From Prolixibacteraceae bacterium (GTDB lineage: Bacteria > Bacteroidota > Bacteroidia > Bacteroidales > Prolixibacteraceae), in contig JAQUIJ010000004.1 in NCBI GenBank assembly GCA_028683385.1, positions 213,416-277,415 of the forward strand: DNA of 64,000 bases. Reading direction: 5' to 3'. Positions 35,313-50,810 of the stretch are shown one piece after another; the first letter of the stretch is position 1; every line of letters starts with the position of its first letter. Position numbers and translations under genes: made by a program. The notes beneath the pieces were generated by a model that was not told the origin of the DNA, ran no database searches, and saw only the letters and a program-made list of their open reading frames with translations.

Positions 35313-37100
35313 ATGAGATTTGTTGATTATAAAATTCGGACAAAATTAATGGGGGCATTCGGAGTTCTGATTCTGATCGCTTTCATTTTGTCGATCAACA
35401 CTATAGTAACACTATTATTCTTTAAAAAGGATATTAACTCTTTTACCGCGGAGTTTATTCCTCAATTAGAATTATCCAATCAGATTAATTCTGAAACTCA
35501 AATGCTTTTGTTTAATATGGAGGGTTATTATTTAACGGGGAAACCCTATTATTTTTCCAAAGCAGAGGTTGAACTCGCATCGTTAAAGAAATCACTTGAT
35601 GAAGGGGTCGAGCTTCTGGAAAACTCGAAAAAGCGGACCAGTCTTGAAGAGAATTTAAGCGAAGCAAAAATATTGATTCCCCAGTGTGAACAGAACATGA
35701 TGATGAGTTTTAAGATTATCCAGGATATCAATATTTTACAGAATAAGGGAAAACAGATTCCGGAGACAAATGCTCCTACCGATAATATTGTATCGAAAAA
35801 GAAAAAAAAAGGTGCTATTCTAAATTCAAAACCAAAAAATTCTTATCATGACGTTAGTGTTGATCTGGCTGAAAAGAACGCCCAGCTTCTAAAATTGAAA
35901 GTGAAGAATTCTGCAATTTTAGCCGATCTGAAAACAAACTCAGATAACCTTCGAAGTTCTGTTGTAGACTACACTTCCGAGGTTGCCACGAAGTTTGATA
36001 ATTCAATCTTGTCATCCATTATTATTACGATTGTCATTGTTTTAATTTCGTTGGGTTTTGCGCTTTTTGTTATCATTTTTATTTCGCGGATGATTACCCA
36101 ACCGCTTTTGAAAGGAATTGAGTTCGCGCAAAATTTGGCAAAGGGCGATTTGACGGCTACGATTGACATCAATCAGAAAGATGAAATTGGAGTTCTGGCT
36201 CAAAATCTGCAAATGATGAGTGTTCGTTTACGGGAAGTAATCGCATACGTCTCTTCTACTGCAGAAAATCTGTCTGCGGCCAGCCTGGAGCTAAGCTCAA
36301 CTTCACAAATTGTTTCTCAGGGAGCATCAGAGCAGGCTTCTTCTGCTGAAGAAGTCTCTGCCGCAATTGAAGAAATGGCAGCCAATATTCAACAAAATAA
36401 AGAGAATGCAAATCAAACCGAAAAGATAGCGGTTAAAGCCGAAAAAGATATTCATTTCGGCAGTGAAAAAGTAGTTGAAACGGTTGATGCTATGCGTGTA
36501 ATTGTCAATAAAATTTCAATTATTGGCGACATCGCTTTCCAGACTAATATCCTGGCATTGAACGCAGCCGTTGAAGCTGCAAGGGCTGGCGAACACGGAC
36601 GTGGATTTGGGGTTGTGGCGACAGAAGTTGGAAAACTGTCAGAACGAAGCAAATTGGCGGCTTCAGAAATTGACAAGCTTACCAAATCAAGCGTTTTTAA
36701 TGCAGAAGAAGCCGGAAAACTTATGAGTGAAATCGTTCCTGAGATTCAAAGGACTTCGCAACTAATTCATGAAATATCGGCTGCCAATAAAGAGCAAAGT
36801 GCTGGTGCTGATCAAATCAATATAGCAATTCAGCAACTTAATATGGTAACGCAGCAAAATGCGGCAACTTCAGAAGAGTTGTCTACCAACGCGGTTGAAT
36901 TATCAGCTCAGGCAGAGCAGCTTCAGGAGATTATTTCTTTCTTCAAAATAGATAATGAAGATCATGATCCAAAGAAAAATAGAACTGTATCCGAGACCCC
37001 TGTTCCACATGAAGTTAAATCGGGAGATGTTAAACGAGGTGTTATTATTGAGTTGGATGAACTCGATGATATTTCAGACGATGAGTTTGAACGATTTTAA
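35313..37100 (+). CDS. Methyl-accepting chemotaxis protein
   Basis: 595 residues: TM1 at about 13-35, a four-helix-type periplasmic sensor (36-232) holding an odd Lys run (SKKKKKGAI) and [20 protein letters not shown]2 at about 233-258, HAMP ([22 protein letters not shown]), and a signalling hairpin with [28 protein letters not shown]. After a flexible linker of about 40 residues it ends in E-F-E-R-F, which fits the aromatic-x-x-aromatic tether that recruits CheR or CheB. The Lys run is encoded by nine consecutive A residues (35802-35810). It is the only receptor in the window. Confidence 0.95.
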
Positions 37101-37134
37101 AACCATTAAACAGATCAATAATAACGTTTAAGTA

Positions 37135-37998
37135 GTGAAGTCAGAATTTATCGAAATATCAGATGAACTTTTTCTTAAGGTTGGAAAGATGATTACTGAA
37201 AAGTATGGGATTAAAATGCCTCTGGAAAAGAAGATCATGTTTCAGTCCAGACTTCAGCGTCGTTTGCGTGACCTTGATATGGATTCGTTTGACGAATATG
37301 CGATGCAATTGTTCTCTGATAGTGGCGAATCAATGGAATTTAATTTGCTTGCCGATTTTATTTCGACCAATAAAACTGAATTTTTTCGTGAGAAAGAGCA
37401 TTTCCGTTTCCTGACCGAAAATATTTTGCCTGAGTACTTAGAAAATAATACATCCAATCTGTTCCCGGATTTGAACTTTTGGAGTGCTGGTTGTTCCAGC
37501 GGTCAGGAGGCCTATTCTATCGGAATTCAAATCGAAGAATTTATGCGATTGAGTGGAATTCAATTTAAATACTCAATACTGGCAACCGATATTTCAGGTA
37601 AAATGTTACGATTTGCCAGAGATGCAGTTTACCCGATGCTAGAGGTTGACGAAATGCCCATTGAACTTAAACATCGCTATTTTTTGAAAAGTAAAAATTC
37701 AAAAGACCCGAAAGTCAAAGTAGTAAAAGCGATTAGAGAAAGGGTAAAGGTAGGTTATCTGAACCTAATGGATAGTTTGTATCCATTTGATGCGCAATTT
37801 GATGTTGTGTTTCTCCGGAATACACTGATATACTTCGATCAAATGATTCAATTAAAAGTCTTGACAAGAGTGTTAGGTAGTTTAAAAACAGGAGGTTATC
37901 TGTTTATTGGTCATTCGGAATCACTAATAAACCTACATCTGCCAATTAAATCAATTGCTCCAAGTGTTTACATTAAAATCAATACAGAAGGATTATGA
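37135..37998 (+). CDS. cheR: Chemotaxis receptor methyltransferase CheR
   Basis: 287 residues with a GTG start. N-terminal helical domain (ITEKYGIKMPLEKKIMFQSRLQRRL), then the SAM-binding domain: STNKTEFFREKEHF, LNFWSAGCSSGQEAYSIGI, ILATDISGKMLRFAR, FDVVFLRNTLIYFDQ and GGYLFIGHSESL. The small beta-subdomain (HRYFLKSKNSKDPKVKVVKAI) seems as long as that of CheR proteins which bind C-terminal pentapeptides, matching the EFERF end of the adjacent MCP. It overlaps the next gene by four bases. Confidence 0.95.
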   Translation: MKSEFIEISDELFLKVGKMITEKYGIKMPLEKKIMFQSRLQRRLRDLDMDSFDEYAMQLFSDSGESMEFNLLADFISTNKTEFFREKEHFRFLTENILPEYLENNTSNLFPDLNFWSAGCSSGQEAYSIGIQIEEFMRLSGIQFKYSILATDISGKMLRFARDAVYPMLEVDEMPIELKHRYFLKSKNSKDPKVKVVKAIRERVKVGYLNLMDSLYPFDAQFDVVFLRNTLIYFDQMIQLKVLTRVLGSLKTGGYLFIGHSESLINLHLPIKSIAPSVYIKINTEGL

Positions 37999-38879
37999 AT
38001 TCCAGAAATGAAATTGAATCAGAGTTAGAAAATTGCAGGATGCAAATTTCTAAACTTGAGAAGGAAAATGAAGAATTGGTCAGAAGTCTTTCCGAAGTCA
38101 ACGAAAAATTGCACGATTCTGAGCGACTGAAAGGTCATTTTATTAGCAATATAACCAACGAGATTGTAAATCCATTTACGAGCGTCCTCGCATTGGCTGA
38201 AAATATTAAACGGTTGAAGGAAGGCGAAATCCCGATGGCTCACCATATGGCTGAACTCATTTTTGAAGAAGCATTTCATCTCGATTTTCAACTCAAAAAT
38301 ATATTTGCAGCCGCACTTATTGAGGCAGGTAAAGAACAAGTCAAGTGCTCTGTTATTAACCTGAATGAATTAAACAGTCAAATCAGTGAGTACTTTCGGC
38401 AACTGCTCGATAAAAAACGAATTCAACTTTCAATCAGTTTTTCGAATGAATCTTCTGACAACGATCAAATTTCGTTTACTTCTGATCGGGAAAAACTGGA
38501 CATAATTCTTAAAAATCTGATCAGTAATTCGATTAAATACAGTCCGGAAGATTCTGTTATTGAGTTGAAATATTTTATGGGTAAAAAAGAACTTCATTTT
38601 GAAGTCTCCGATCAGGGAAAAGGGATTAATCCGAAAGACCGAAAGATTATTTTTGATCGGTTTAAGCAACTCGATGAAAAAATAAATTCAATCAATACTG
38701 GTCATGGTTTGGGGCTGTCAATTGTTCAGGCTTATGCCGAAATGCTAGGCGGGAAAGTCAGGCTGAACGATAACTTCGATAAAGGGGTCAATGTAATGGT
38801 TATCATTCCGGAAAGCGCTGAAGCCAGCGATTGGGATGATCTGGAGGATTTTTTACTCGATTCTGAAGCCAGCTACTAA
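37995..38879 (+). CDS. Histidine-kinase-like protein lacking the phospho-accepting His
   Basis: 294 residues, no membrane helix. A coiled coil at 8-45 is followed by an H-box-like segment, FISNITNEIVNPFTSVL, in which Asn55 stands where kinases have His (SHE becomes TNE). The ATPase domain is complete: N box NLISNSIKYSPED, G1 DQGKGINP, F box FDRFKQ, G2 TGHGLGLSIVQAYAEMLGG. It cannot autophosphorylate at the usual site, so it may regulate the hybrid kinase or act as a phosphatase or scaffold (inference). It lies between cheR and cheD; ends in an acidic tail (DWDDLEDFLLDSE). Confidence 0.9.
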   Translation: MNSRNEIESELENCRMQISKLEKENEELVRSLSEVNEKLHDSERLKGHFISNITNEIVNPFTSVLALAENIKRLKEGEIPMAHHMAELIFEEAFHLDFQLKNIFAAALIEAGKEQVKCSVINLNELNSQISEYFRQLLDKKRIQLSISFSNESSDNDQISFTSDREKLDIILKNLISNSIKYSPEDSVIELKYFMGKKELHFEVSDQGKGINPKDRKIIFDRFKQLDEKINSINTGHGLGLSIVQAYAEMLGGKVRLNDNFDKGVNVMVIIPESAEASDWDDLEDFLLDSEASY

Positions 38880-38884
38880 ACAAC

Positions 38885-39358
38885 ATGGACAGGCAAAATC
38901 CATATTTTCTGCATCCGTCAACGATTTACGTCAGTCAGGATTCGCAATGGATAGTTACAATCCTTGGGTCGTGCGTGTCTGTTTGCTTTTTCGATACCAA
39001 AAGAAATATCGGTGGAATCAACCATTATATGACGCCCTATTGGAATGGCGATGGGTTGGAATCGCCCAAATATGGCAATGTATCAATTTTACAATTATTT
39101 CAGAAAATGCTTGGCTTTGGTGCAAAAAAAGAAGATATTGTATGTAAAATATTTGGAGGTGCCGAAGTATTAAGTGAACAACTGTCAGTATTTAATGTCG
39201 GACAACGAAATATTGAACTGGCCTATAAAATGGTTGCTGAATTAGGCATTTCAGTAGTTAGTTCAAGTACTGGTGGAAAACAGGGTCGGAAAATTTATTT
39301 TAATGCAGGAACAGGTGAAGTTTTGCAAAAATATCTGGTAAAGAGTAATCCAAAATGA
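38885..39358 (+). CDS. cheD: Receptor glutamine deamidase CheD
   Basis: 157 residues with catalytic C30 (TILGSCVSVC) and H47 (GGINHYMTPYW), plus KIFGGAEVL, GQRNIELA and GGKQGRKIYFNAGTGEV. It converts receptor Gln to Glu, preparing methylation sites for CheR. Five bases after the pseudo-kinase gene, seven bases before cheB. Confidence 0.94.
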   Translation: MDRQNPYFLHPSTIYVSQDSQWIVTILGSCVSVCFFDTKRNIGGINHYMTPYWNGDGLESPKYGNVSILQLFQKMLGFGAKKEDIVCKIFGGAEVLSEQLSVFNVGQRNIELAYKMVAELGISVVSSSTGGKQGRKIYFNAGTGEVLQKYLVKSNPK

Positions 39359-39364
39359 GCCAAA

Positions 39365-40426
39365 ATGATCAGGAAAATAAAAGTATTGATTGTTGATGAT
39401 TCTGTTTCAGTGCAAAATGTGCTTCAGGAAATACTGACAAATGATCCTGAAATCGAAGTTATTGGTACAGCTTCAAATCCTTACGAAGCGGTTGCCAAAA
39501 TTGCTGAGGTTCTTCCTGATGTAATTACTCTGGACATTGAAATGCCACGGATGGACGGGATTACATTTTTGCGAAAACTGATGAAGCAGCATCCTATTCC
39601 GGTTGTTGTTATTTCGTCGGTTGTTGGCGAAGGTTCGAACAATGCAATGCAGGCTTTAAAACTGGGGGCGAGGGAAATTATTACAAAACCAAGATTATCC
39701 AGTCCGAAAGAGCTCGAAGAATACAGTATCCGCATTATTGATGCCATTAAAGCTTCTGCGCAAACGATTCAAATCCCTATAAAATCGCAAAAACATGAAG
39801 GTATTCCAATAAATAATGGGAATTCGTCATCACCGGACAACCAAAATAACGATCTGATTTCTGAAAAATTAATCCTCATTGGAGCTTCAACTGGCGGTAC
39901 CGAGGTTATTTCTAAAATCCTGAAGGGTCTTCGAAACGATTTGCCCGGAATACTAATTGTTCAGCATATGCCCGGAGAATTTACCAAAGCATTTGCTAAC
40001 AGGCTGAATATGGAGTGTAACCTGCAAGTAAAAGAAGCAGAGCAAGATGATGTAATTAAGCGAGGATATGTGTATATTGCAAATGGATTTCACCATCTTT
40101 CTATTGTTAGGGAAAATGGCATATACAAATGTAGATTGGAAATGAGTGAGCTGGTTAACAGACATCGCCCTTCGGTGGATGTGTTGTTCAAATCAGCCAG
40201 TAAATTTCAGGGTAAAGATATAACCGCAATTTTGCTTACCGGAATGGGATCTGATGGCGCTAAAGGATTGCTTGAATTGTCCACAATAGGGGCAAAAACA
40301 TTTGCTCAGGATGAAAAATCATCGGTCGTATTTGGTATGCCCAATGAAGCAATCAAGTTAAATGCTGCAAAAATGATCGGAAATCCGGATGAATTAATAA
40401 ATTGGCTAAATACAATATTTCATTAA
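39365..40426 (+). CDS. cheB: Receptor methylesterase CheB
   Basis: 353 residues: receiver domain with D57 (VITLDIEMPRMDG), linker at about 130-165, then the esterase domain with the triad S175 (IGASTGGTE), H201 (IVQHMPGEF) and D297 (GMGSDGAKG). It removes methyl groups from the receptor when phosphorylated by CheA. Confidence 0.96.
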   Translation: MIRKIKVLIVDDSVSVQNVLQEILTNDPEIEVIGTASNPYEAVAKIAEVLPDVITLDIEMPRMDGITFLRKLMKQHPIPVVVISSVVGEGSNNAMQALKLGAREIITKPRLSSPKELEEYSIRIIDAIKASAQTIQIPIKSQKHEGIPINNGNSSSPDNQNNDLISEKLILIGASTGGTEVISKILKGLRNDLPGILIVQHMPGEFTKAFANRLNMECNLQVKEAEQDDVIKRGYVYIANGFHHLSIVRENGIYKCRLEMSELVNRHRPSVDVLFKSASKFQGKDITAILLTGMGSDGAKGLLELSTIGAKTFAQDEKSSVVFGMPNEAIKLNAAKMIGNPDELINWLNTIFH

Positions 40427-40427
40427 A

Positions 40428-42011
40428 ATGATGGATAAGGATCAAGGATCAAAAATTCTTATTGTAGATGATGTTCAGTTAAATCTTGATCTGATGAAAG
40501 AAATATTGTCAGACAAGGGGTATCTGATTGCAACTGCGATTAATGGAAGGTCAGCTATTGCCAAGGCCAAAGCTCATAAATTTGACTTGATATTGCTTGA
40601 CGTTGTCTTGCCTGATATTGATGGGTTTGAGGTCTGTTCTCACTTAAAGGCCAATGCACAGACTCAGGATATTCCAATTATTTTCCTGACTGCCAAAAAG
40701 GAAAAAGACAATATCACACATGGGTTTAACCTTGGAGCAGTTGATTACATTCCTAAACCATTCAGTAAGGAAGAACTTTTGGCTCGGGTAAATCTTCACC
40801 TGACTTTACGTAAATATCAGGACGAACTTATTCGTTCAAAAGAAATGGCCGAAGCTTCAGCGCAGGCTAAAGCTAGCTTTTTGGCCAATATTTCGCATGA
40901 GATCAGAACTCCGATGAATGGTATCATTGGAATGATTGACATACTTAAGCGGACTTCATTAACAGCAGAACAGCTTGAATACATTGATATTATTGGCATC
41001 TCAGGCGAAAACCTGCTGATGATAATTAATGATGTACTCGACTTTTCGAAGATCGAAGCAGGTCAGATCACTTTTGAGCATATCAGGTTTAATTTGTGGG
41101 ATGAAATTAATGAGGTGATAAAAATTCTCCGTTACAAAGCCATACAGAAGAATCTTGACCTCAGGTTTGAAATTGCTCCTGATGTACCTCAACTTCTTAT
41201 TGGCGATCCTCTGAGGTTGAAACAGGTATTGATTAATCTGTGCAACAATTCGATCAAATTTACATCTGAAGGATTTGTACATGTATATGTGAAACTTGTG
41301 GACAAAAATGAAAGTGCTGTTCGTTTGCAATTTGATGTTAAAGATTCGGGAATTGGAATTTCACCTGAAAATCAATTGAAACTGTTTAAATCGTTTGCAC
41401 AGGCCGAAGTCTCGACCACACGCAAATTTGGAGGAACCGGGCTTGGACTTGCTATTTCAAAAAATTTGGTGCAGTTAATGGGTGGTGAAATAGGTATTAT
41501 CAGCGAAGAAGGGAAAGGAGCTATTTTCCATTTCGAAGGTAAATTTGGGATAGCCGGGCATGATCTTACTGAAGCCGAAAATCATGAACTGGAAGAATCA
41601 GTTCAACACGATCGAAAATTGAAAATATTATTGGCTGAAGACAATGTAATTAACCAAAAAGTTGCTAAATTAAATCTGGAAAAACTTGGACATTCAGTTA
41701 TACTTGTTTCCAATGGTATTCAGGCTGTTGAGCAGTTTATAAAGGAATTACCCGATGTGATTTTTATGGATGTATTTATGCCGGATATGGATGGAGTAGA
41801 GGCAACAGGCAAAATCCGGGAGTGGGAAAGAATAAATAACATAACTAATCGTGTTCCGATAGTTGCGATGACTGCCAATACAAATAAAAATGATAAAGAT
41901 TTATTCGTGGCTGCCGGCATGGACGATTATTTAAGTAAACCTTTTAATGTTAGTGAGTTAGTCAGGCTTTGTGATAGGATATACAAGCAGTTGGAACGAA
42001 AGAATATATAA
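40428..42011 (+). CDS. Hybrid histidine kinase (REC-HisKA-HATPase-REC)
   Basis: 527 residues, soluble. Receiver 1 with D58 (LILLDVVLPDIDG), a linker helix, HisKA with H157 (FLANISHEIRTPMNGIIGM), ATPase (INLCNNSIKFTSEG, DSGIGISPENQ, FGGTGLGLAISKNLVQLMGGEIG), and receiver 2 (VIFMDVFMPDMDG, SKPFNVSEL). With the pseudo-kinase and the final regulator it forms a phosphorelay attached to the Che system. No DNA-binding domain. The N-terminal receiver may tie it to CheA. Confidence 0.94.
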   Translation: MMDKDQGSKILIVDDVQLNLDLMKEILSDKGYLIATAINGRSAIAKAKAHKFDLILLDVVLPDIDGFEVCSHLKANAQTQDIPIIFLTAKKEKDNITHGFNLGAVDYIPKPFSKEELLARVNLHLTLRKYQDELIRSKEMAEASAQAKASFLANISHEIRTPMNGIIGMIDILKRTSLTAEQLEYIDIIGISGENLLMIINDVLDFSKIEAGQITFEHIRFNLWDEINEVIKILRYKAIQKNLDLRFEIAPDVPQLLIGDPLRLKQVLINLCNNSIKFTSEGFVHVYVKLVDKNESAVRLQFDVKDSGIGISPENQLKLFKSFAQAEVSTTRKFGGTGLGLAISKNLVQLMGGEIGIISEEGKGAIFHFEGKFGIAGHDLTEAENHELEESVQHDRKLKILLAEDNVINQKVAKLNLEKLGHSVILVSNGIQAVEQFIKELPDVIFMDVFMPDMDGVEATGKIREWERINNITNRVPIVAMTANTNKNDKDLFVAAGMDDYLSKPFNVSELVRLCDRIYKQLERKNI

Positions 42012-43720: not shown

Positions 43721-43750
43721 TTTGATTTGTGAAATTAGAATCTACATTTG
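43721..43750 (+). promoter_or_regulatory. Promoter of the sulfite-reduction operon
   Basis: TTTG (43721-43724), 18 bases, then TACATTTG (43743-43750) fits the Bacteroidota vegetative promoter (TTG / TAnnTTTG). The transcript would start near 43757, about 32 bases before the leader ORF. Confidence 0.6.
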
Positions 43751-43788: not shown

Positions 43789-43902
43789 ATGAAACAATAT
43801 TCTTCTGAAATAGCAAAAATGAATTCTTCACTGATCATGGCTCAAACTATGTGTATGTGCATGTGTTTTCATTTAACTTTTCAGAAGGAGAACAGGATAT
43901 AG
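43789..43902 (+). CDS. Cys-rich leader peptide of the sulfite-reduction operon
   Basis: 37 codons, ATG at 43789 and TAG at 43900-43902. The middle reads MAQTMCMCMCFHLTFQ, with Cys codons TGT, TGC and TGT at 43852, 43858 and 43864, each separated by one Met codon. It stands between a good promoter and a terminator hairpin, upstream of the genes that reduce sulfite to sulfide. A ribosome waiting for Cys-tRNA at these codons would leave 43882-43890 free to form an antiterminator. The peptide itself is probably without function. Met codons may add sensitivity to methionine. Confidence 0.75.
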   Translation: MKQYSSEIAKMNSSLIMAQTMCMCMCFHLTFQKENRI

Positions 43903-43959
43903 GTGAATTTTCACCAAATATTTATAAGCTCTTCTGGAAATCAGAGGGGCTTTTTTTTT
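43882..43959 (+). promoter_or_regulatory. Cysteine attenuator: antiterminator and terminator
   Basis: Terminator: agctcttctg (43927-43936), loop gaaat, cagaggggct (43942-43951), then nine T (43951-43959). Competing arm: cagaaggag (43882-43890), which can pair with ctcttctg (43929-43936) and so break the terminator. A small hairpin, ggtgaa/ttcacc (43902-43915), lies between. A ribosome at the leader stop codon (43900-43902) would cover 43882-43890 and favour termination; one stalled at the Cys codons would not. Confidence 0.75.
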
Positions 43960-43972
43960 GACATCTAACAAC

Positions 43973-44209
43973 ATGAACATGAGTGAAAAATCATACCGGA
44001 GTATTGTAAAATCGATTTCATGGCGAACCATTGGAACCATTGATACCATTATAATTTCGCTGATAATTACGGGAAAGCCTACGTTAGCTTTATCGATTGG
44101 CGGAATTGAAGTGTTTACGAAGATGGCCCTGTATTACTTTCATGAACGAACCTGGAATCGGATCAATTTTGGCCGGATTAAGAAAATCGATTCAGACTAT
44201 CAAATATAA
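43973..44209 (+). CDS. DUF2061 small membrane protein
   Basis: 78 residues from the ATG at 43973 (another at 43979); the ORF also extends to a TTG inside the terminator T-run, which is rejected. KSYRSIVKSISWRTIGTIDTIIISLIITGKPTLALSIGGIEVFTKMALYYFHERTWNRI is the DUF2061 signature, with two membrane helices. Family members are often found with sulfate-assimilation genes; the role is unproven. It is first structural gene after the Cys attenuator. Confidence 0.9.
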   Translation: MNMSEKSYRSIVKSISWRTIGTIDTIIISLIITGKPTLALSIGGIEVFTKMALYYFHERTWNRINFGRIKKIDSDYQI

Positions 44210-44217
44210 TCAAGTGA

Positions 44218-44679
44218 ATGGAAAAGAACTATTTACCTATAGCAATCGACATTTCGAACAGTAAAATATTGATCATTGGCGGCGGGCAGAGCGCCTTGAA
44301 GAAAATCAGGATTTTGCAGCGCTCTGGTGCAAATATCGAAGTGGTGGCCGAGAATATCATCGACGAAGTTTATGCTTCAGGAGTAATCTGCCGCAATAAA
44401 AGGTACGAAAAGGGCGATTTAAACGGCTATCTGATGCTTTATTCCTGCACAAATAACAAAACGCTCGACAAGCAGATTGCAGAGGATGGGAGAGAAGCCG
44501 GAGTCTTGGTCAATGTTCACGATAATCCTGCTCTTTGCCAGTTTGTTTCCCCGGCAATTTATCGCGATGGAAATATATCGGTTGCTGTAAGTTCGAATGC
44601 TGAAAATGTTTACGAAGCAATTCGGGTGAGAAATCTGATTCAGGAATATTTAGAAAATCTTAAAAACACACAAATATGA
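44218..44679 (+). CDS. Precorrin-2 dehydrogenase / sirohydrochlorin ferrochelatase (short form)
   Basis: 153 residues, shorter than the about 200 of most members. N-terminal NAD site ILIIGGGQSALKKIRILQRSGANIEVV, then CTNNKTLDKQIAEDGREAGVLVNVHDNPALCQFVSPAIYRDGNISVAVSS. It corresponds to the N-terminal part of CysG (Met8 type) and lacks the methylase part, which is encoded separately by cobA at 50073. It oxidises precorrin-2 and may insert iron to give siroheme for CysI. It overlaps cysJ by four bases (ATGA). Confidence 0.88.
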   Translation: MEKNYLPIAIDISNSKILIIGGGQSALKKIRILQRSGANIEVVAENIIDEVYASGVICRNKRYEKGDLNGYLMLYSCTNNKTLDKQIAEDGREAGVLVNVHDNPALCQFVSPAIYRDGNISVAVSSNAENVYEAIRVRNLIQEYLENLKNTQI

Positions 44680-46451
44680 GCATTCAATTGAGTCCATTAA
44701 ATGAACAGCAGCTAAGCGCCTTGGCCAGCTTGACTGCCGGGTTGAACCGAGAGCAGTTGCTCTGGATAAATGGTTATTTTCAGGGATTCTTAGCTTCCTC
44801 CGGAGCTACTCAGCAGGTTGTTGGTAAAAGTCAGCCCAAGAGCAATAAACAATTGAAAATACTTTACGGTACACATACTGGCCGAAGTAAAATAATCGCC
44901 GGAAAACTTGCCGGAAAACTTGCCGGCCTTGGCGTTGAAGTTGTTTCAGTTGCTCTGGACGAATACAAGACCAGGCAATTGATCTCGGAAACCAATGTGG
45001 TTTTCATTGTAAGTACTCATGGCGAAGGCGAGCCTCCTGCAATGGCTGAAGATTTTCACAGCTTTATTACCGGAAAACGCTCGCCAAAACTTCCTAACCT
45101 GAACTATTCGGTGGTGGCCTTGGGCGATAAAAGTTACAAGTTTTTCTGCAAAACAGGAATCGATATCGATCAGGCTTTAGAAAAGTCAGGGGCAAATTCT
45201 ATTTTACCAATTCTGACTTTAGATGTTGATTTTGATGAAGAGATAGATCGCTGGATCGCTGATTTTGCTGATGTTTTTGCCGATATACCGGCTGATAAAA
45301 CTCAATCAAATATTCAAAATAGTGCTGAAAGCACTGAAACTTATACGCGAAAGAATCCATTTCTTGCCACGGTTGTTGATAAAGTGAAAATTACCGGCCG
45401 CGATTCGGATAAGGAAGTTTATCATGTAGAGCTTTCGCTTGAAGGATCTGGAATTACATACGAACCGGGCGATTCGGTAGGTGTTCTGGCCAATAACCCA
45501 CCACAGTTGGTCGATGATATTCTCAATCGTTTAGGTCTTGATGGAGCTGAATCAGTTACGATAAAAGAAGGTGTTTTCTCGTTGAGCGAAGCATTATCGA
45601 ACCATTTGGAAATTACTGTTATCAATCGCGATGTTATTCAGAAATACCAGGCAAAAGCAGAAAATAGTGAACTTCAGAAGGTAATTGAAAGTGAAGAACT
45701 CCTAGATCGATATTTATATGGACACGATGTTCTTGATCTTTTAGAAGACTTCCCATTCTCATTCTCAGCACAGGATTTGGCTGATGTTTTACGGGCATTT
45801 CCTGCGCGTTTGTATTCTATTTCTTCAAGCCAGGCTGCCGTTGGCGATGAAGTTCATATTACAGTATCAACAGTTCGCTATTCAAATAAAGGTCGATTAA
45901 GAGGGGGTGCCTGTTCAACTTATTTAGCCGACCGCATTGAAATCGATTCACAGGTTGCGGTATTTATTGAAAAGAATCCGGCATTTAAGCTTCCGGAGAA
46001 TGAAGAAACACCAGTTATTTTAATCGGAGCAGGAACGGGAGTTGCACCATATCGTGCTTTTTTGCAGCACCGCGAAGCCAACAATCAAAAAGGAAAAACT
46101 TGGTTGTTCTTTGGCGAACGCCGTTTCCATTCCGACTTTTTATACCAGGTTGAATGGCAGAAGCTCTTGAAAGATGGCTATCTGGAGAAAATTGATGTTG
46201 CTTTTTCGCGCGATCAGGAAGAAAAAATATATGTGCAAACCCGGTTGATCGAAAAGCAAAAGGAAGTTTTTGAATGGCTTAAAAATGGTGCAAACATTTA
46301 CCTCTGTGGCGATATGAAACAAATGGCTCACGATGTACAAAACACTTTACTCCGGATATTTGAAACACAAGGCGGATTGACAGAAGAAAAAGCGCTGGAA
46401 TACCTGAAAACCCTGAAAAAGGAGAAACGTTTTCAAACGGATGTTTATTAG
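44676..46451 (+). CDS. cysJ: Sulfite reductase flavoprotein alpha subunit
   Basis: 591 residues: a leading helix (1-60), FMN-binding flavodoxin domain (LKILYGTHTGRSKIIAGKLAGKLAGLG), FAD domain (YEPGDSVGVLANNPP, RLYSISSSQAAVGDEVHITVSTV, GACSTYLADRI) and NADPH domain (VILIGAGTGVAPYRAFLQHREA, FFGERRFHSDFLYQVEWQ, NIYLCGDMKQMAHDVQNTL). It passes electrons from NADPH to CysI. Inside the FMN domain GKLA occurs twice in tandem. The next gene, cysI, follows after a 280-base gap with an inserted repeat. Confidence 0.96.
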   Translation: MSIQLSPLNEQQLSALASLTAGLNREQLLWINGYFQGFLASSGATQQVVGKSQPKSNKQLKILYGTHTGRSKIIAGKLAGKLAGLGVEVVSVALDEYKTRQLISETNVVFIVSTHGEGEPPAMAEDFHSFITGKRSPKLPNLNYSVVALGDKSYKFFCKTGIDIDQALEKSGANSILPILTLDVDFDEEIDRWIADFADVFADIPADKTQSNIQNSAESTETYTRKNPFLATVVDKVKITGRDSDKEVYHVELSLEGSGITYEPGDSVGVLANNPPQLVDDILNRLGLDGAESVTIKEGVFSLSEALSNHLEITVINRDVIQKYQAKAENSELQKVIESEELLDRYLYGHDVLDLLEDFPFSFSAQDLADVLRAFPARLYSISSSQAAVGDEVHITVSTVRYSNKGRLRGGACSTYLADRIEIDSQVAVFIEKNPAFKLPENEETPVILIGAGTGVAPYRAFLQHREANNQKGKTWLFFGERRFHSDFLYQVEWQKLLKDGYLEKIDVAFSRDQEEKIYVQTRLIEKQKEVFEWLKNGANIYLCGDMKQMAHDVQNTLLRIFETQGGLTEEKALEYLKTLKKEKRFQTDVY

Positions 46452-46731: not shown

Positions 46732-48432
46732 ATGAACGATACTATTAATTGGGATGAACTTTCAGAGTTAGAGCGAATCAAATACGAAAGTAACTACCTC
46801 AGGGGTACTTTGGTTGAGAGCCTTGCCGATCCGATAACCGGATCAATTGCTTATGCTGATACCCAGCTCTCAAAGTTTCACGGTTTGTACCAACAGTTCG
46901 ACCGTGATTTGGAAAAAGAACGCAAACGCCAGAAACTGGAACCGGCCTATTCTTTCCTGATTCGGGTGAGGCTTCCCGGTGGAGTTGTAACTCCAAAGCA
47001 ATGGCTGCAAATGGATGAAATCTCGGAGCAATATGCCAATCATACGCTGAAACTGACTACGCGTCAGGCTTTTCAGTTACATGGCGTAATTAAATCGAAC
47101 CTGAAGAAAACCATTCAGGGAATCAATGCCACATTGCTGGACACAATTGCAGCTTGTGGCGATGTGAACCGAAATGTGATGAGTCATCCAAATCCTGCTG
47201 AGTCGGAGTTGCATGCCGAAGTTTATGAAACTGCGCGTCGCATCAGCGAACATTTATTGCCATCGACTACTGCATATCACGAAATCTGGCTCGATCAGAA
47301 ACTGATAGCCGACAGTAAAAAAGATGTTGAACCAATTTATGGCGATCGTTATCTGCCACGGAAATTTAAGATCGCGATTGCAATTCCGCCATACAACGAT
47401 TCTGATGTTTTCTCGCAGGACCTGGGTTTTATAGCCATTGTCGGGAATAACCGGATTATCGGTTATAATGTGGCAGTTGGCGGTGGAATGGGCACCACTT
47501 TCGGAATGCCTGAAACTTATCCGCGATTGGCCGAGGTGATTGGTTTTTGCACTCCTGAGCAGGTGATTGATGTAGCTGAAAAAGTGGTTTTGGTGCAGCG
47601 CGACAACGGAAACCGTCAGAACCGTAAAATTTCAAGGCTGAAATATACGATTGACCGATTAGGAATCGAAGCGTTTAAAGCTGAATTGTACAACTATCTT
47701 GGATACGAACTTCAGGAAGCTAAACCGTATGCTTTTACACGCAATGGCGATCGTTTGGGCTGGAAGAAAGGTACCGATTCGAAATGGAGCCTTTCGCTTT
47801 TTGTTGAAGGTGGCCGTGTTGCCGACCGGAACGGTTTTAACCTGAAATCGGCGCTTCGTGAAGTGGCGCAACGCATCAACGGGCAATTCATTCTGACTGG
47901 AAATCAAAATTTGATCATCGCCAATGTAACGGCTGATGAAAAGGATACAGTGAGCGAAATCCTGAAAAGCAATGGGGTTTTGCCTGGCGAAATTTCAGGA
48001 TTACGTCAGAATTCAATTGCTTGTGTAGCGCTCAATACCTGTAGTTTGGCGTTTGCCGAAGCCGAAAGGTATTTGCCATCGCTGGTCACCAAAATTGAAT
48101 CGATTTTGAATCAGCACGACTTGTTTCAGGAGGAAATCGTGATTCGAATGACCGGTTGCCCGAACGGTTGTGGTCGGCCATATTTGGCTGAAATTGGGTT
48201 TGTCGGAAAATCAGAAGGTCACTACAACCTCTATTTAGGTGGAAATTTTAACGGAACCCGCCTCAATTCGCTCTACAAAGAAACGCTTACCGAAGATGAA
48301 ATTCTGGCCGAATTAACTCCCATCATTGCCGATTATGCAACGAACCGAAGCGCTGGGGAAAAGTTTGGCGATTTTGTTATCCGTAAGCAATATGTAAATG
48401 AAATAGTAAAAGGAAGTGATTTCAGACATTAA
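46732..48432 (+). CDS. cysI: Sulfite reductase hemoprotein beta subunit
   Basis: 566 residues. It holds siroheme and a 4Fe-4S cluster and reduces sulfite to sulfide with six electrons from CysJ. Cluster ligands: C-x5-C in [21 protein letters not shown] and C-x3-C in [18 protein letters not shown]. Other conserved parts are [32 protein letters not shown] and [14 protein letters not shown]- and C-terminal ferredoxin-like halves are complete. Confidence 0.97.
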
Positions 48433-48444
48433 AAATATTTTATC

Positions 48445-49152
48445 ATGAAAACACCAGTATTTTTTATCGGCGAAAAGCTCTCAGCAGTTACTCGCCAGTG
48501 GTTGCAAAAGCAACACGTTCAATACATCGAACAACCGTTTTTACGCATTGAGTACAAAAAACCAAACCTGTCATTTTTTAGCACAATGACAAATACCCGC
48601 AAACAATGGGTTATTACCAGTGTTTATGCGGCTCATTGGCTGGCCCGATTCCATTCACAGATTGGCTTGGGAGAGTCGGATAGTTTGTATTGCTGGTCGG
48701 AAAAGGAGGCCGGGATCCTAAAAGAACTCAACCTCCCAATTTCGATTTCTTCGTATTCCAATACATCCGAATTAGCTGAGAATGTGATTAGTCAAAATCA
48801 GGGCGACTCTGTTTTGTTTTTGCGCGGCGACAAGCTGCATAGCGAAATAACTTCAGTATTCTCTGTGTTTGCTCTTCAATATTCTGAAATTGAGGTGTAT
48901 AAGAATACGCCGATTGAGAAATTTGTAAGTGGAATATTCGACGCTTATCTGTTTTTTAGTCCTTCGAGCATCGATAATTTTAAAGCATCGGGTAATTTCA
49001 CAAACCAAACCTCACTTATTCTGGCTAACGAAAATTCGACAGCTAGAGCGGCCTGGCGCGTATTCGATAATAAAGTTTATCTTTCACCTGAACAGGAAGA
49101 GCTGTCGTTTGTTCAAGATTCGATAGCGCGTTGGAAGAAAGAAAACATTTAA
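48445..49152 (+). CDS. hemD: Uroporphyrinogen-III synthase
   Basis: 235 residues, divergent but with the HemD layout of two Rossmann-like halves: VFFIGEKLSAVTRQWLQKQHVQYIEQPFLRIE, KQWVITSVYAAHWLARF, GDSVLFLRGDKLHSEI, FDAYLFFSPSSIDNFKA and SLILANENSTARAAW. It closes the tetrapyrrole ring for siroheme. It is 12 bases after cysI, in the place where Bacteroidota siroheme operons carry hemD. The identification is reasonable, not certain. Confidence 0.78.
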   Translation: MKTPVFFIGEKLSAVTRQWLQKQHVQYIEQPFLRIEYKKPNLSFFSTMTNTRKQWVITSVYAAHWLARFHSQIGLGESDSLYCWSEKEAGILKELNLPISISSYSNTSELAENVISQNQGDSVLFLRGDKLHSEITSVFSVFALQYSEIEVYKNTPIEKFVSGIFDAYLFFSPSSIDNFKASGNFTNQTSLILANENSTARAAWRVFDNKVYLSPEQEELSFVQDSIARWKKENI

Positions 49153-49161
49153 CAAATCTGG

Positions 49162-49998
49162 ATGAAGTCGGGAACAGTTTCAATTTTGGGATGCGGTTGG
49201 CTGGGAGTAGCACTAGGGAAACATTTACGGAATCGACGATTTTCGGTAAAAGGTTCGGTTACTTCTCCTGAAAAGTTTGGACAGCTTCGTACTTCAGGTA
49301 TTGTGCCTTACCGGATTGTGTTGAATGAAAACAATGTAGAGGTTGATGACCCTGCATTTTTTGAAACGGATGTGCTGGTTATTGCCATTCCTCCTCGTCG
49401 TATTGATGAGATTGAGCGTATATTTCCAACTCAGATTGCGCAACTGATTCCAATCATCCTGAAGTCAGGTATCCGAAAGGTGATTTTCATTTCATCAACG
49501 TCGGTTTATCCTGAAAATTTAAAGACGGCACATGAAAATGATGTGCTTTATCCGGACAAAGCAAGTGGAAAGGCTTGTTTGGCTGCGGAGAATCTGTTGA
49601 ATAATCTCACTGATTTTGAAACGACAATTCTGCGGTTTGGCGGATTAATTGGTGCCGATCGCAATCCTGCACGTTTTCTCCTGAAATCTGCTCGTCCAGT
49701 TGCAAATATTCCGGTGAATTTGATTCATCAGGATGATTGCATTGGCATTATTGATGCAATTCTGGAAAAAGATCTATGGGGTGAAACGCTGAATGCCTGT
49801 TGTCCTGAACATCCGCTCAAAAAGGATTTTTACGGAAAGGCAGCTCAAATTTCAGGTTTGCCTGCACCACTGATTTCTGATGAAGCTGAAGCTTATAAAA
49901 TAGTTGACAGCAGCAAATTAAAGCTATTACTGAAATATAAGTTTAAATATCCAAGCCCGATGGATTACCTCGATAGCCTTCAGCCAAGTCAAAAGTAG
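49162..49998 (+). CDS. NAD(P)-binding SDR/epimerase-like protein
   Basis: 278 residues: SILGCGWLGVALGKHLRNRRFSVKGSVTSP (Rossmann Gly motif GxGxxG-like), VLVIAIPPRRIDEIE, VIFISSTSVYPENLKTAHEND, and TILRFGGLIGADRNPARFL with NLIHQDDCIGIIDAIL. It resembles the YeeZ-type extended short-chain dehydrogenases whose substrate is unknown. The catalytic Tyr-x3-Lys is weak here (YPENLK / YPDKASGK). It lies between hemD and cobA and is probably co-transcribed. Confidence 0.8.
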   Translation: MKSGTVSILGCGWLGVALGKHLRNRRFSVKGSVTSPEKFGQLRTSGIVPYRIVLNENNVEVDDPAFFETDVLVIAIPPRRIDEIERIFPTQIAQLIPIILKSGIRKVIFISSTSVYPENLKTAHENDVLYPDKASGKACLAAENLLNNLTDFETTILRFGGLIGADRNPARFLLKSARPVANIPVNLIHQDDCIGIIDAILEKDLWGETLNACCPEHPLKKDFYGKAAQISGLPAPLISDEAEAYKIVDSSKLKLLLKYKFKYPSPMDYLDSLQPSQK

Positions 49999-50072: not shown

Positions 50073-50810
50073 ATGGGTTCACTCATTTCTATAGTTGGCG
50101 CCGGTCCAGGTGATCCGGAATTACTGACCATTAAAGCACTGAAACGCATTCAGGAAGCTGACTGCATATTGCACGATGCGCTGGTTAGCGACGAAATTAT
50201 GAATCTGGCCAAACCTGAAGCTCAGCGGATTTACGTTGGAAAACTGTATCAGGATGGGCAAGATCAAACCGACCGTCAGGAATGGATCAACCAGTTGATT
50301 ATTGAATTGGCGGGTAAAGGACAAAAGGTGGTCAGGCTGAAATCGGGCGATCCGATGATTTTTGGCCGTGGCGCTGAAGAAATCAGGTTTTGCATTGAAA
50401 ACAGTCTCAATTATGAAGTTATTCCTGGTGTGACTTCAGCACTTGGAGCTGCTTCGTTGTATGGCATTCCACTCACCGAACGAGGCAAGAACAGCATGGT
50501 TTTGTTTGGTACCGGTCACTATTGCGAAGGCGATTTCTGCGATCTCGAAACCTTCGTTTCAGTGCTGAAATCGGGTTCACCCATCATTTTCTTTATGGGA
50601 CTCAATAAACTGGTCCGGTTAGCCCAACGATTAATGGATCAGGCTATTTCCCCGGAAATAAAAGTTCAGATTTTAAGCAAAGTCTCGCAGCCCGACACTG
50701 TAGCTTTTGAAGGTACGCTCGGAAACATTGCCCAGATTCTGGAGACAGAAAAGCCACCTATGCCTGCCTTGGTAATTATTGGCAAAAATGTGGAGCGATT
50801 GAGTAAGTAG
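50073..50810 (+). CDS. cobA: Uroporphyrinogen-III C-methyltransferase
   Basis: 245 residues: SIVGAGPGDPELLTIKALKRIQEADCILHDALVS, VVRLKSGDPMIFGRGAEEI, YEVIPGVTSALGAASLYGIPLTERGKNSMVLFGTGH and PIIFFMGLNKL, all signatures of the SUMT family. It adds two methyl groups from SAM to give precorrin-2, the substrate of the dehydrogenase at 44218. It is last in the siroheme/sulfite operon. Confidence 0.96.
   Translation: MGSLISIVGAGPGDPELLTIKALKRIQEADCILHDALVSDEIMNLAKPEAQRIYVGKLYQDGQDQTDRQEWINQLIIELAGKGQKVVRLKSGDPMIFGRGAEEIRFCIENSLNYEVIPGVTSALGAASLYGIPLTERGKNSMVLFGTGHYCEGDFCDLETFVSVLKSGSPIIFFMGLNKLVRLAQRLMDQAISPEIKVQILSKVSQPDTVAFEGTLGNIAQILETEKPPMPALVIIGKNVERLSK

Follow-up and report, generated by a model that had tools for sequence, protein, structure and literature searches.

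A predicted cysteine-responsive, ribosome-mediated attenuator ahead of the sulfite-reduction operon in Prolixibacteraceae

In Proteobacterial attenuators of the trp and his type, the leader carries codons for the end product of the operon together with four RNA arms and an intrinsic terminator, and the position of the stop codon brings a finishing ribosome over arm 2. A 2020 study by Canestrari reportedly concerns cysteine-codon leader ORFs of Actinobacteria. An earlier survey (Seliverstov 2005, PMC1262725) describes, in its accessible part, short Actinobacterial ORFs that precede cys genes and carry Cys-codon runs near the stop codon, with no conserved terminator hairpins, and the available portion of PMC13236596 treats attenuation with regulatory Cys codons in Mtb. 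For Bacteroidetes, a table in the accessible part of Weinberg 2010 (PMC2864571) includes Bacteroid-trp RNA (RF01692) as a candidate regulatory RNA; the term “bacteroid” does not occur in PMC2965389. Clues of leader-peptide attenuation before amino-acid operons, the amino acids being unnamed there, come from Flavobacterium psychrophilum (PMC9723704), and leader-like short ORFs from Bacteroides thetaiotaomicron (PMC7366714), in both cases according to the accessible text. Tandem attenuation, with two short ORFs in one attenuated leader, is described for Salmonella mgtCBR in the available part of PMC3641672.

Here we analysed a 64,000-nucleotide stretch of DNA from a Prolixibacteraceae bacterium (the window), and taken together its sequence, conservation and modelled folding suggest, with a probability that we put at roughly 0.86, that the leader ahead of its sulfite-reduction operon is a ribosome-mediated transcription attenuator responsive to cysteine and perhaps also to methionine. 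The observation as made in a first-pass annotation is real. The 37-codon ORF that it reported lies at 43789-43902 on the forward strand, as do all features given below (ATG at 43789, stop at 43900-43902), and translates into MKQYSSEIAKMNSSLIMAQTMCMCMCFHLTFQKENRI. In its middle, TGT ATG TGC ATG TGT at 43852-43866 encodes Cys-Met-Cys-Met-Cys, with Cys codons at 43852, 43858 and 43864 and a Met codon before each, and the putative sensing codons Met-Cys-Met-Cys-Met-Cys therefore span 43849-43866; codons for the product of the operon’s own pathway are in this way clustered in a short leader ORF. The terminator hairpin and its nine T, said to use the same bases as the antiterminator, are also present: arm 3 (AAGCTCTTCTG, 43926-43936), common to the 2:3 and 3:4 pairings, and arm 4 (CAGAGGGGCTT, 43942-43952) form a terminator-like stem at 43926-43952 followed by T (nine-T run at 43951-43959), and by both sequence and fold an intrinsic terminator stands between the leader ORF and the first gene. 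The proposed antiterminator arm is found as arm 2 (CTTTTCAGAAGGA, 43877-43889), which encodes Gln-Lys close to the end of the ORF and pairs its CAGAAGG with the CTCTTCTGG portion of arm 3. All parts of the layout first described are thus in place, except that arm 1 (ATTCTTCTGAAAT, 43799-43811) had been overlooked; it resembles arm 3, can pair with arm 2, which is common to 1:2 and 2:3, and completes a four-arm layout of 1:2, 2:3 and 3:4. The fold of the window leader beats 200 of 200 dinucleotide shuffles (z -3.81). A small hairpin between arms 2 and 3 (GGTGAATTTTCACC, 43902-43915), kept with changes in near relatives when alignment A1 is inspected by eye, is perhaps a pause or spacer hairpin.

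Similar to the trp and his type, the window leader has end-product codons, four arms that can pair as 1:2, 2:3 and 3:4, a terminator and a stop codon at which a finishing ribosome would cover arm 2. Unlike that type, its codons are those of Cys and Met, its host belongs to Bacteroidota, some genera carry tandem units, and some 40 nt separate arm 1 from the sensing codons downstream of it, which means that one stalled ribosome does not cover it. With the Actinobacterial cysteine leaders, as far as the accessible part of PMC1262725 describes them, it shares runs of Cys codons in short ORFs ahead of cys genes, but here the terminator and antiterminator are conserved and 11 codons lie between the last Cys codon and the stop; this comparison is one of features. 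Like Bacteroid-trp (RF01692) it is a candidate regulatory RNA in Bacteroidetes; unlike it, the window leader reaches no Rfam gathering score. Across the 64 kb no Rfam family attains its gathering score, and RF01692 is absent from the leader’s six weak matches, all far below cut-off. At E 0.01 neither Pfam nor NCBIfam yields a match to the leader peptide, and the 15-base Cys-Met codon pattern alone is unremarkable, with one match in the genome and one for the reversed pattern.

The genes downstream bear out the cysJ, cysI and siroheme genes named in the first-pass annotation, all by profile matches. The leader is followed by a DUF2061 membrane protein (43973-44209; PF09834, E 2.6e-22), a siroheme synthase CysG of the N-terminal-domain type (44218-44679), the sulfite reductase flavoprotein cysJ (44676-46451; TIGR01931 over cut-off) and hemoprotein cysI (46732-48432; TIGR02041 over cut-off), a HemD-like uroporphyrinogen-III synthase (48445-49152; PF02602), an NAD(P)-binding protein encoded within this gene row (49162-49998; PF13460) and a uroporphyrinogen-III C-methyltransferase of the cobA or cysG C-terminal type (50073-50810; TIGR01469 over cut-off). 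Chemotaxis genes (MCP, CheR, CheD, CheB and kinases) lie at 35313-42011, with no evident operon link. Upstream, the promoter that had been claimed fares less simply: a sigma-70 scan finds none directly before the leader, and a motif match predicts TACATTTG at 43743-43750, of the form TAnnTTTG, which we take to be a -7 box of the Bacteroidota type. Within 80 nt before the leader ATG, TANNTTTG occurs in 31 of 48 leader loci against 2.9 expected from shuffles, and in 23 of those 31 it sits 42-52 nt ahead of the ATG. A CRP-like palindrome, TGTGA-N6-TCACA, follows the -7 box in 8 of 49 leader loci (L025, L030, L031, L050, L061, L063, L089 and L104), 29-39 nt before the leader ATG, and hints at an extra DNA-binding regulator in that subgroup.

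A search for MCMC-like short ORFs followed by a T-run hairpin upstream of DUF2061, cysJ and cysI, which the first-pass annotation had proposed, recovers many such leaders. DUF2061 matched in 47 of 100 family genomes, from which 30 loci were fetched; named genomes contributed a further 80 of 90 related places, giving 110 loci, or 96 once repeats were removed. A rule that asks for a Cys-rich ORF and a terminator flagged 50 of the 96; the leaders of L014, L032, L033 and L037, missed by the automatic rule or with their start codon missed, were added by hand, and repeats were dropped (L040 = L010, L049 = L022 and L051 = L021, with one L067 leader duplicating another). This yields 59 distinct leaders in 49 of the 96 loci; each combines a Cys/Met run with a terminator and a pairing partner of arm 3, and their ORFs have 23-39 codons. 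The titles of these loci name Prolixibacteraceae, Bacteroidetes or Bacteroidota MAGs, Sunxiuqinia, Draconibacterium, Mariniphaga, Maribellus, Marinifilum and Labilibaculum, and two MAGs are titled Chlorobiota (L052) and Melioribacter (L071); NCBI taxonomy places Draconibacterium and Sunxiuqinia in Prolixibacteraceae, Marinifilum and Labilibaculum in Marinifilaceae, and all of them in Marinilabiliales. Downstream of the leader, cysJ was detected in 46 of the 49 loci. Among the other 47 loci it was detected in five, three of them the repeats of leader loci (L040, L049 and L051) and two (L028 and L055) with a leader about 1 kb further up, ahead of a 302-303-codon ORF that precedes DUF2061. Every fetched DUF2061 locus with cysJ detected downstream therefore has a leader, and homologous operons devoid of both the Cys codons and the pairing, which would have spoken against the first interpretation, did not turn up among these. 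Where cysJ and cysI instead lie upstream of DUF2061 (L066, L069 and L070) the scan finds no leader, and 36 of the other 47 loci have none of the five tested genes downstream.

A strict scan of the 96 loci for all 20 amino acids, which asks for a short ORF and a strict terminator, returns Met in 43, Cys in 41, Asn in 12 and the rest in fewer, and the opposite strand of the same 96 loci gives Cys 0 and Met 0, with only one Leu and one Val. That the terminator is constitutive and tunes basal expression beside an unrelated short ORF is very improbable given this absence from the control strands and the conservation of the frame, the Cys/Met codons and all three pairings, even though the 2:3 pairing outdoes 95% of shuffles in only 6 of 12 isolated terminator-bearing leaders when each is taken by itself. 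Cys and Met make up 240 (13.2%) and 267 (14.6%) of the 1824 non-initiator residues in the 59 leaders, percentages to be read knowing that the flagging rule favours Cys and, less so, Met; the genome background is 0.77% Cys and 1.29% Met (2328 residues, five proteins). Among 39 aligned single leaders one Met-Cys pair is invariant, both residues occurring in all 39, and the Met that comes next occurs in 35. The number of Met-Cys repeats varies, and L014 and L037 are among the leaders with two Cys codons only. In the core the Met codons are as conserved as the Cys codons, so the signal, originally taken to be cysteine, may be Cys plus Met.

Support for the pairings comes from alignment A1 of 37 leaders. 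In 1:2, 2:3 and 3:4, respectively, 81.4%, 92.7% and 98.0% of cells are paired, with 21, 30 and 6 two-sided-change cells, and each pairing exceeds its own controls slid by 1-3 columns in cells paired; for 3:4, one slid control has more two-sided cells (12 vs 6). The pairing of arms 2 and 3 lies above shuffles in cells paired, two-sided cells and covariation score (0/500), but not in the number of pairs with two-sided change, which 497 of 500 shuffles reach. The weakest of the three is 1:2, which forms at least 5 pairs in 27 of 59 free folds. Arm 2 fits the arm 3 of its own group better than those of the other main groups: with its own arm 3 the energy is -13.8 kcal/mol in single leaders (37), -14.5 in the first Marinifilaceae unit (10) and -10.0 in the second (11), and cross-group means among these three main groups are -6.5 to -11.6 kcal/mol; for the one L071 leader its own arm 3 is best at -15.6, with the others nearly equal at -12.8 to -14.5. 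Swaps within the single leaders are weaker than the native arm 2/arm 3 pair in 73% of cases. Judged from these alignments, compensating changes accompany the conserved layout, reading frame and pairing of the leader, arms 2 and 3 vary in concert, and the antiterminator pairing would exclude the terminator.

We then consider how a ribosome might act on these arms, using folding models that mask its footprint and, for stalled states, take an RNA that stops short of arm 4; the models assume queuing, the footprint sizes and the order of folding. A ribosome at the stop codon leaves 2:3 with fewer than 5 expected pairs and the terminator in place in 59 of 59 models, in agreement with the suggestion that a finishing ribosome would sit over the antiterminator arm. 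A single ribosome placed on the run’s first Cys lets 2:3 reach at least 5 pairs in 40 of 59 models, the window not being among them because 1:2 persists there; with a second ribosome queued behind the stalled one, 55 of 59 reach it, the window with 9.9 pairs, and the exceptions are L007, L010, L041 and one L056 leader. The stalled-ribosome switch as first envisaged is accordingly insufficient in the window with a lone ribosome and works in the models with a queue: since plain folding leaves 1:2 in place behind a single stalled ribosome, a queued ribosome or steric hindrance is needed. In the full-length RNA the stable fold is that of the terminator whether or not a ribosome is present (median 11.7 pairs in either case); the switch therefore has to be kinetic, with the antiterminator forming ahead of the synthesis of arm 4. 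Within the models, then, the geometry fits an attenuator in which a ribosome at the stop codon covers arm 2 and one at the sensing codons frees it, in the window only with a queued ribosome.

In the mechanism that we propose, transcription would start from a promoter near 43743 and ribosomes would translate the 37-codon ORF behind RNA polymerase. With ample charged Cys-tRNA (perhaps also Met-tRNA) a ribosome would reach the stop at 43900 and cover arm 2, arms 3 and 4 would pair and transcription would end at the nine T. When Cys is short, a ribosome would stall in the Met-Cys run with a second queued over arm 1, arm 2 would be free to pair with arm 3 and prevent the terminator, and DUF2061-cysG-cysJ-cysI and the siroheme genes would be transcribed. 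RNA that is not translated would presumably adopt 1:2 and 3:4 as a default off state.

Tandem leader-terminator units occur in Marinifilum and Labilibaculum, about 400 to 85 nt before DUF2061 (L053, L054, L056, L057, L059, L060, L062, L064, L065, L067 and L068). Similar to mgtCBR, as the available part of PMC3641672 presents it, these leaders hold two short ORFs; unlike it, both units have Cys/Met runs and each has its own terminator. A MAG titled Melioribacter (L071:2612-2950) has an MNCMCMMMN leader with a terminator and then an ORF ending Met-Cys-Cys-Cys-stop, upstream of DUF2061 and two PAPS-reductase-domain genes, and such leaders may thus extend beyond Bacteroidales. In DUF2061 loci of the Flavobacteria type (L076, L079, L082, L083, L084, L094 and L095) a similar Cys-containing ORF end stands just upstream; the ORF of L083, the sole one tested, matches Rrf2, which suggests that a DNA-binding regulator may replace the attenuator in these loci.

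Leaders of this kind are found before other sulfur genes too. The genome of the window has a second Cys leader, MKANFSYMYMCCCYKRSGEGMFSMNI, with a terminator upstream of cysK, which together with the conserved arrangement, the frame and the compensating changes lends support to the attenuator interpretation first given. In the family, cysK matched in 72 of 100 genomes, and 28 of 30 fetched loci have a Cys leader; of the exceptions, L266 is truncated by the start of its contig, and L267 retains the terminator, with no leader ORF found upstream of its cysK. The 3:4 pairing of these leaders covaries (20 two-sided cells, 0/500 shuffles), and 2:3 is conserved (89.3%) with no covariation beyond shuffles; for the genome’s own cysK leader taken singly, 24% of shuffles are as good in 2:3. 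We rejected a restriction of mixed Met and Cys codons to the shared sulfite trunk, as the cysK leaders are similar in Cys and Met (15.2% and 11.2% vs 13.2% and 14.6%). At the level of the order, cysK matched in 76 of 149 genomes, and a Cys-run leader with terminator precedes it in 7 of 30 fetched loci by the loose scan and 6 of 30 by the strict one. Met-run leaders precede metY in 3 of 30 fetched loci of the order by the loose scan (L173, L174 and L175, two of them double) and 2 of 30 by the strict one. Before cysD the strict scan finds no Cys or Met leader within 1.5 kb in 30 fetched loci. The order search for cysI matched in 12 of 247 genomes, and among 11 extended regions beyond the window’s group L248 has a mixed Cys-Met leader with terminator, its 2:3 pairing not beating shuffles (34% as good), and L249 a Cys run without terminator. 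A covariance model, R1, run over 247 order genomes matches 50 at E 0.01 or better, and of 29 loci inspected besides our own (L113-L141) four have Cys/Met leaders, before cysE-cysK (L117 and L129), cysK (L122, one more cysK Cys leader) and metY (L140); L121 and L134 have Cys-Met ORFs with no fitting gene by eye, and the other 23 of the 29 show no convincing leader. The other R1 hit in the window’s genome, on contig 41, resembles an ordinary terminator that follows an 85-aa ORF. On visual inspection we judged these flags to be spurious: L154 (cysK), L187, L189 and L201 (metY), L217 (cysD), and L251, L253 and L254 (cysI), the last being a Cys-Cys-Cys run 7.9 kb upstream of cysI.

These further leaders bear on a different sensor, in which the nascent Met-Cys peptide itself senses copper, zinc or thiol/sulfide, or arrests the ribosome, and switches the same RNA arms. 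The invariant Met-Cys pair of the single leaders would suit it, Met-Cys repeats resembling metal-binding motifs, as would the second Marinifilaceae leader peptide, whose Pro-Pro-stop end, present in 11 of 11, is a context in which translation is known to be slow. However, the cysE/cysK leaders of other lineages differ in their Cys run (CCCCC, CCICC, CCCC..CC, WCCMW), and the runs ahead of metY in L173 and L175 hold Met without Cys, which indicates that residue content follows the pathway and not one peptide; moreover, the operon genes serve sulfite reduction. We consider a peptide sensor unlikely.

Ahead of lysC-metY-metA in the family (lysC assigned by Pfam, metA by eye) a Met-rich ORF is present in 26 of 30 fetched loci and has no T-run terminator, so these genomes may use further modes of output. 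Such ORFs, often ending Met-Arg-stop, lie at L259:2582-2762 (own genome, contig 25) and in L291-L320, and in many rows GCCTTC at the stop codon can, by eye, pair with a downstream GAAGGC, perhaps as another output mode. An output through translation or Rho-dependent termination in place of the intrinsic terminator was suggested for Mycobacterium cys leaders by the 2005 authors in the accessible part of PMC1262725, and the lysC-metY-metA ORF is in keeping with it; for the leaders studied here it is hardly credible, as a stem with T-run stands behind every one of the 59.

Considering these loci jointly, we offer as a tentative picture, towards which we lean less than halfway, that Prolixibacteraceae and Marinifilaceae control their sulfur amino-acid supply largely through leader peptides, which would stand in for a DNA-binding regulator that senses cysteine. 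In this picture sulfite reduction would answer to a combined Cys and Met sensor, present in tandem in Marinifilaceae, cysK (in other families cysE-cysK) to a Cys sensor, and lysC-metY-metA to a Met sensor. In their accessible parts PMC9723704 and PMC7366714, like our leader, hint at leader-peptide attenuation in Bacteroidota, so attenuation in itself is no novelty for this phylum; unlike it, they name no cysteine or methionine leader there, and the Cys/Met specificity appears new. Among the matches listed, which covered open-licence literature and few subscription papers, we recognised no cysteine or methionine attenuator in Bacteroidota. As far as these searches go, the kind of attenuation is known, and this cysteine member, its phylum and the tandem form are new.

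Cysteine sensing in Bacteroidota is little described, as far as the literature searched shows. The leader list and covariance model are an aid for finding unannotated short ORFs, the natural tandem variants offer a way to ask why two attenuators are stacked, and L267, with its terminator, is a natural test case. If our reading is true, attenuation by an intrinsic terminator is extended to cysteine, and a switch reporting charged Cys-tRNA, perhaps together with Met-tRNA, would explain how sulfite reduction is controlled without a dedicated regulator protein.
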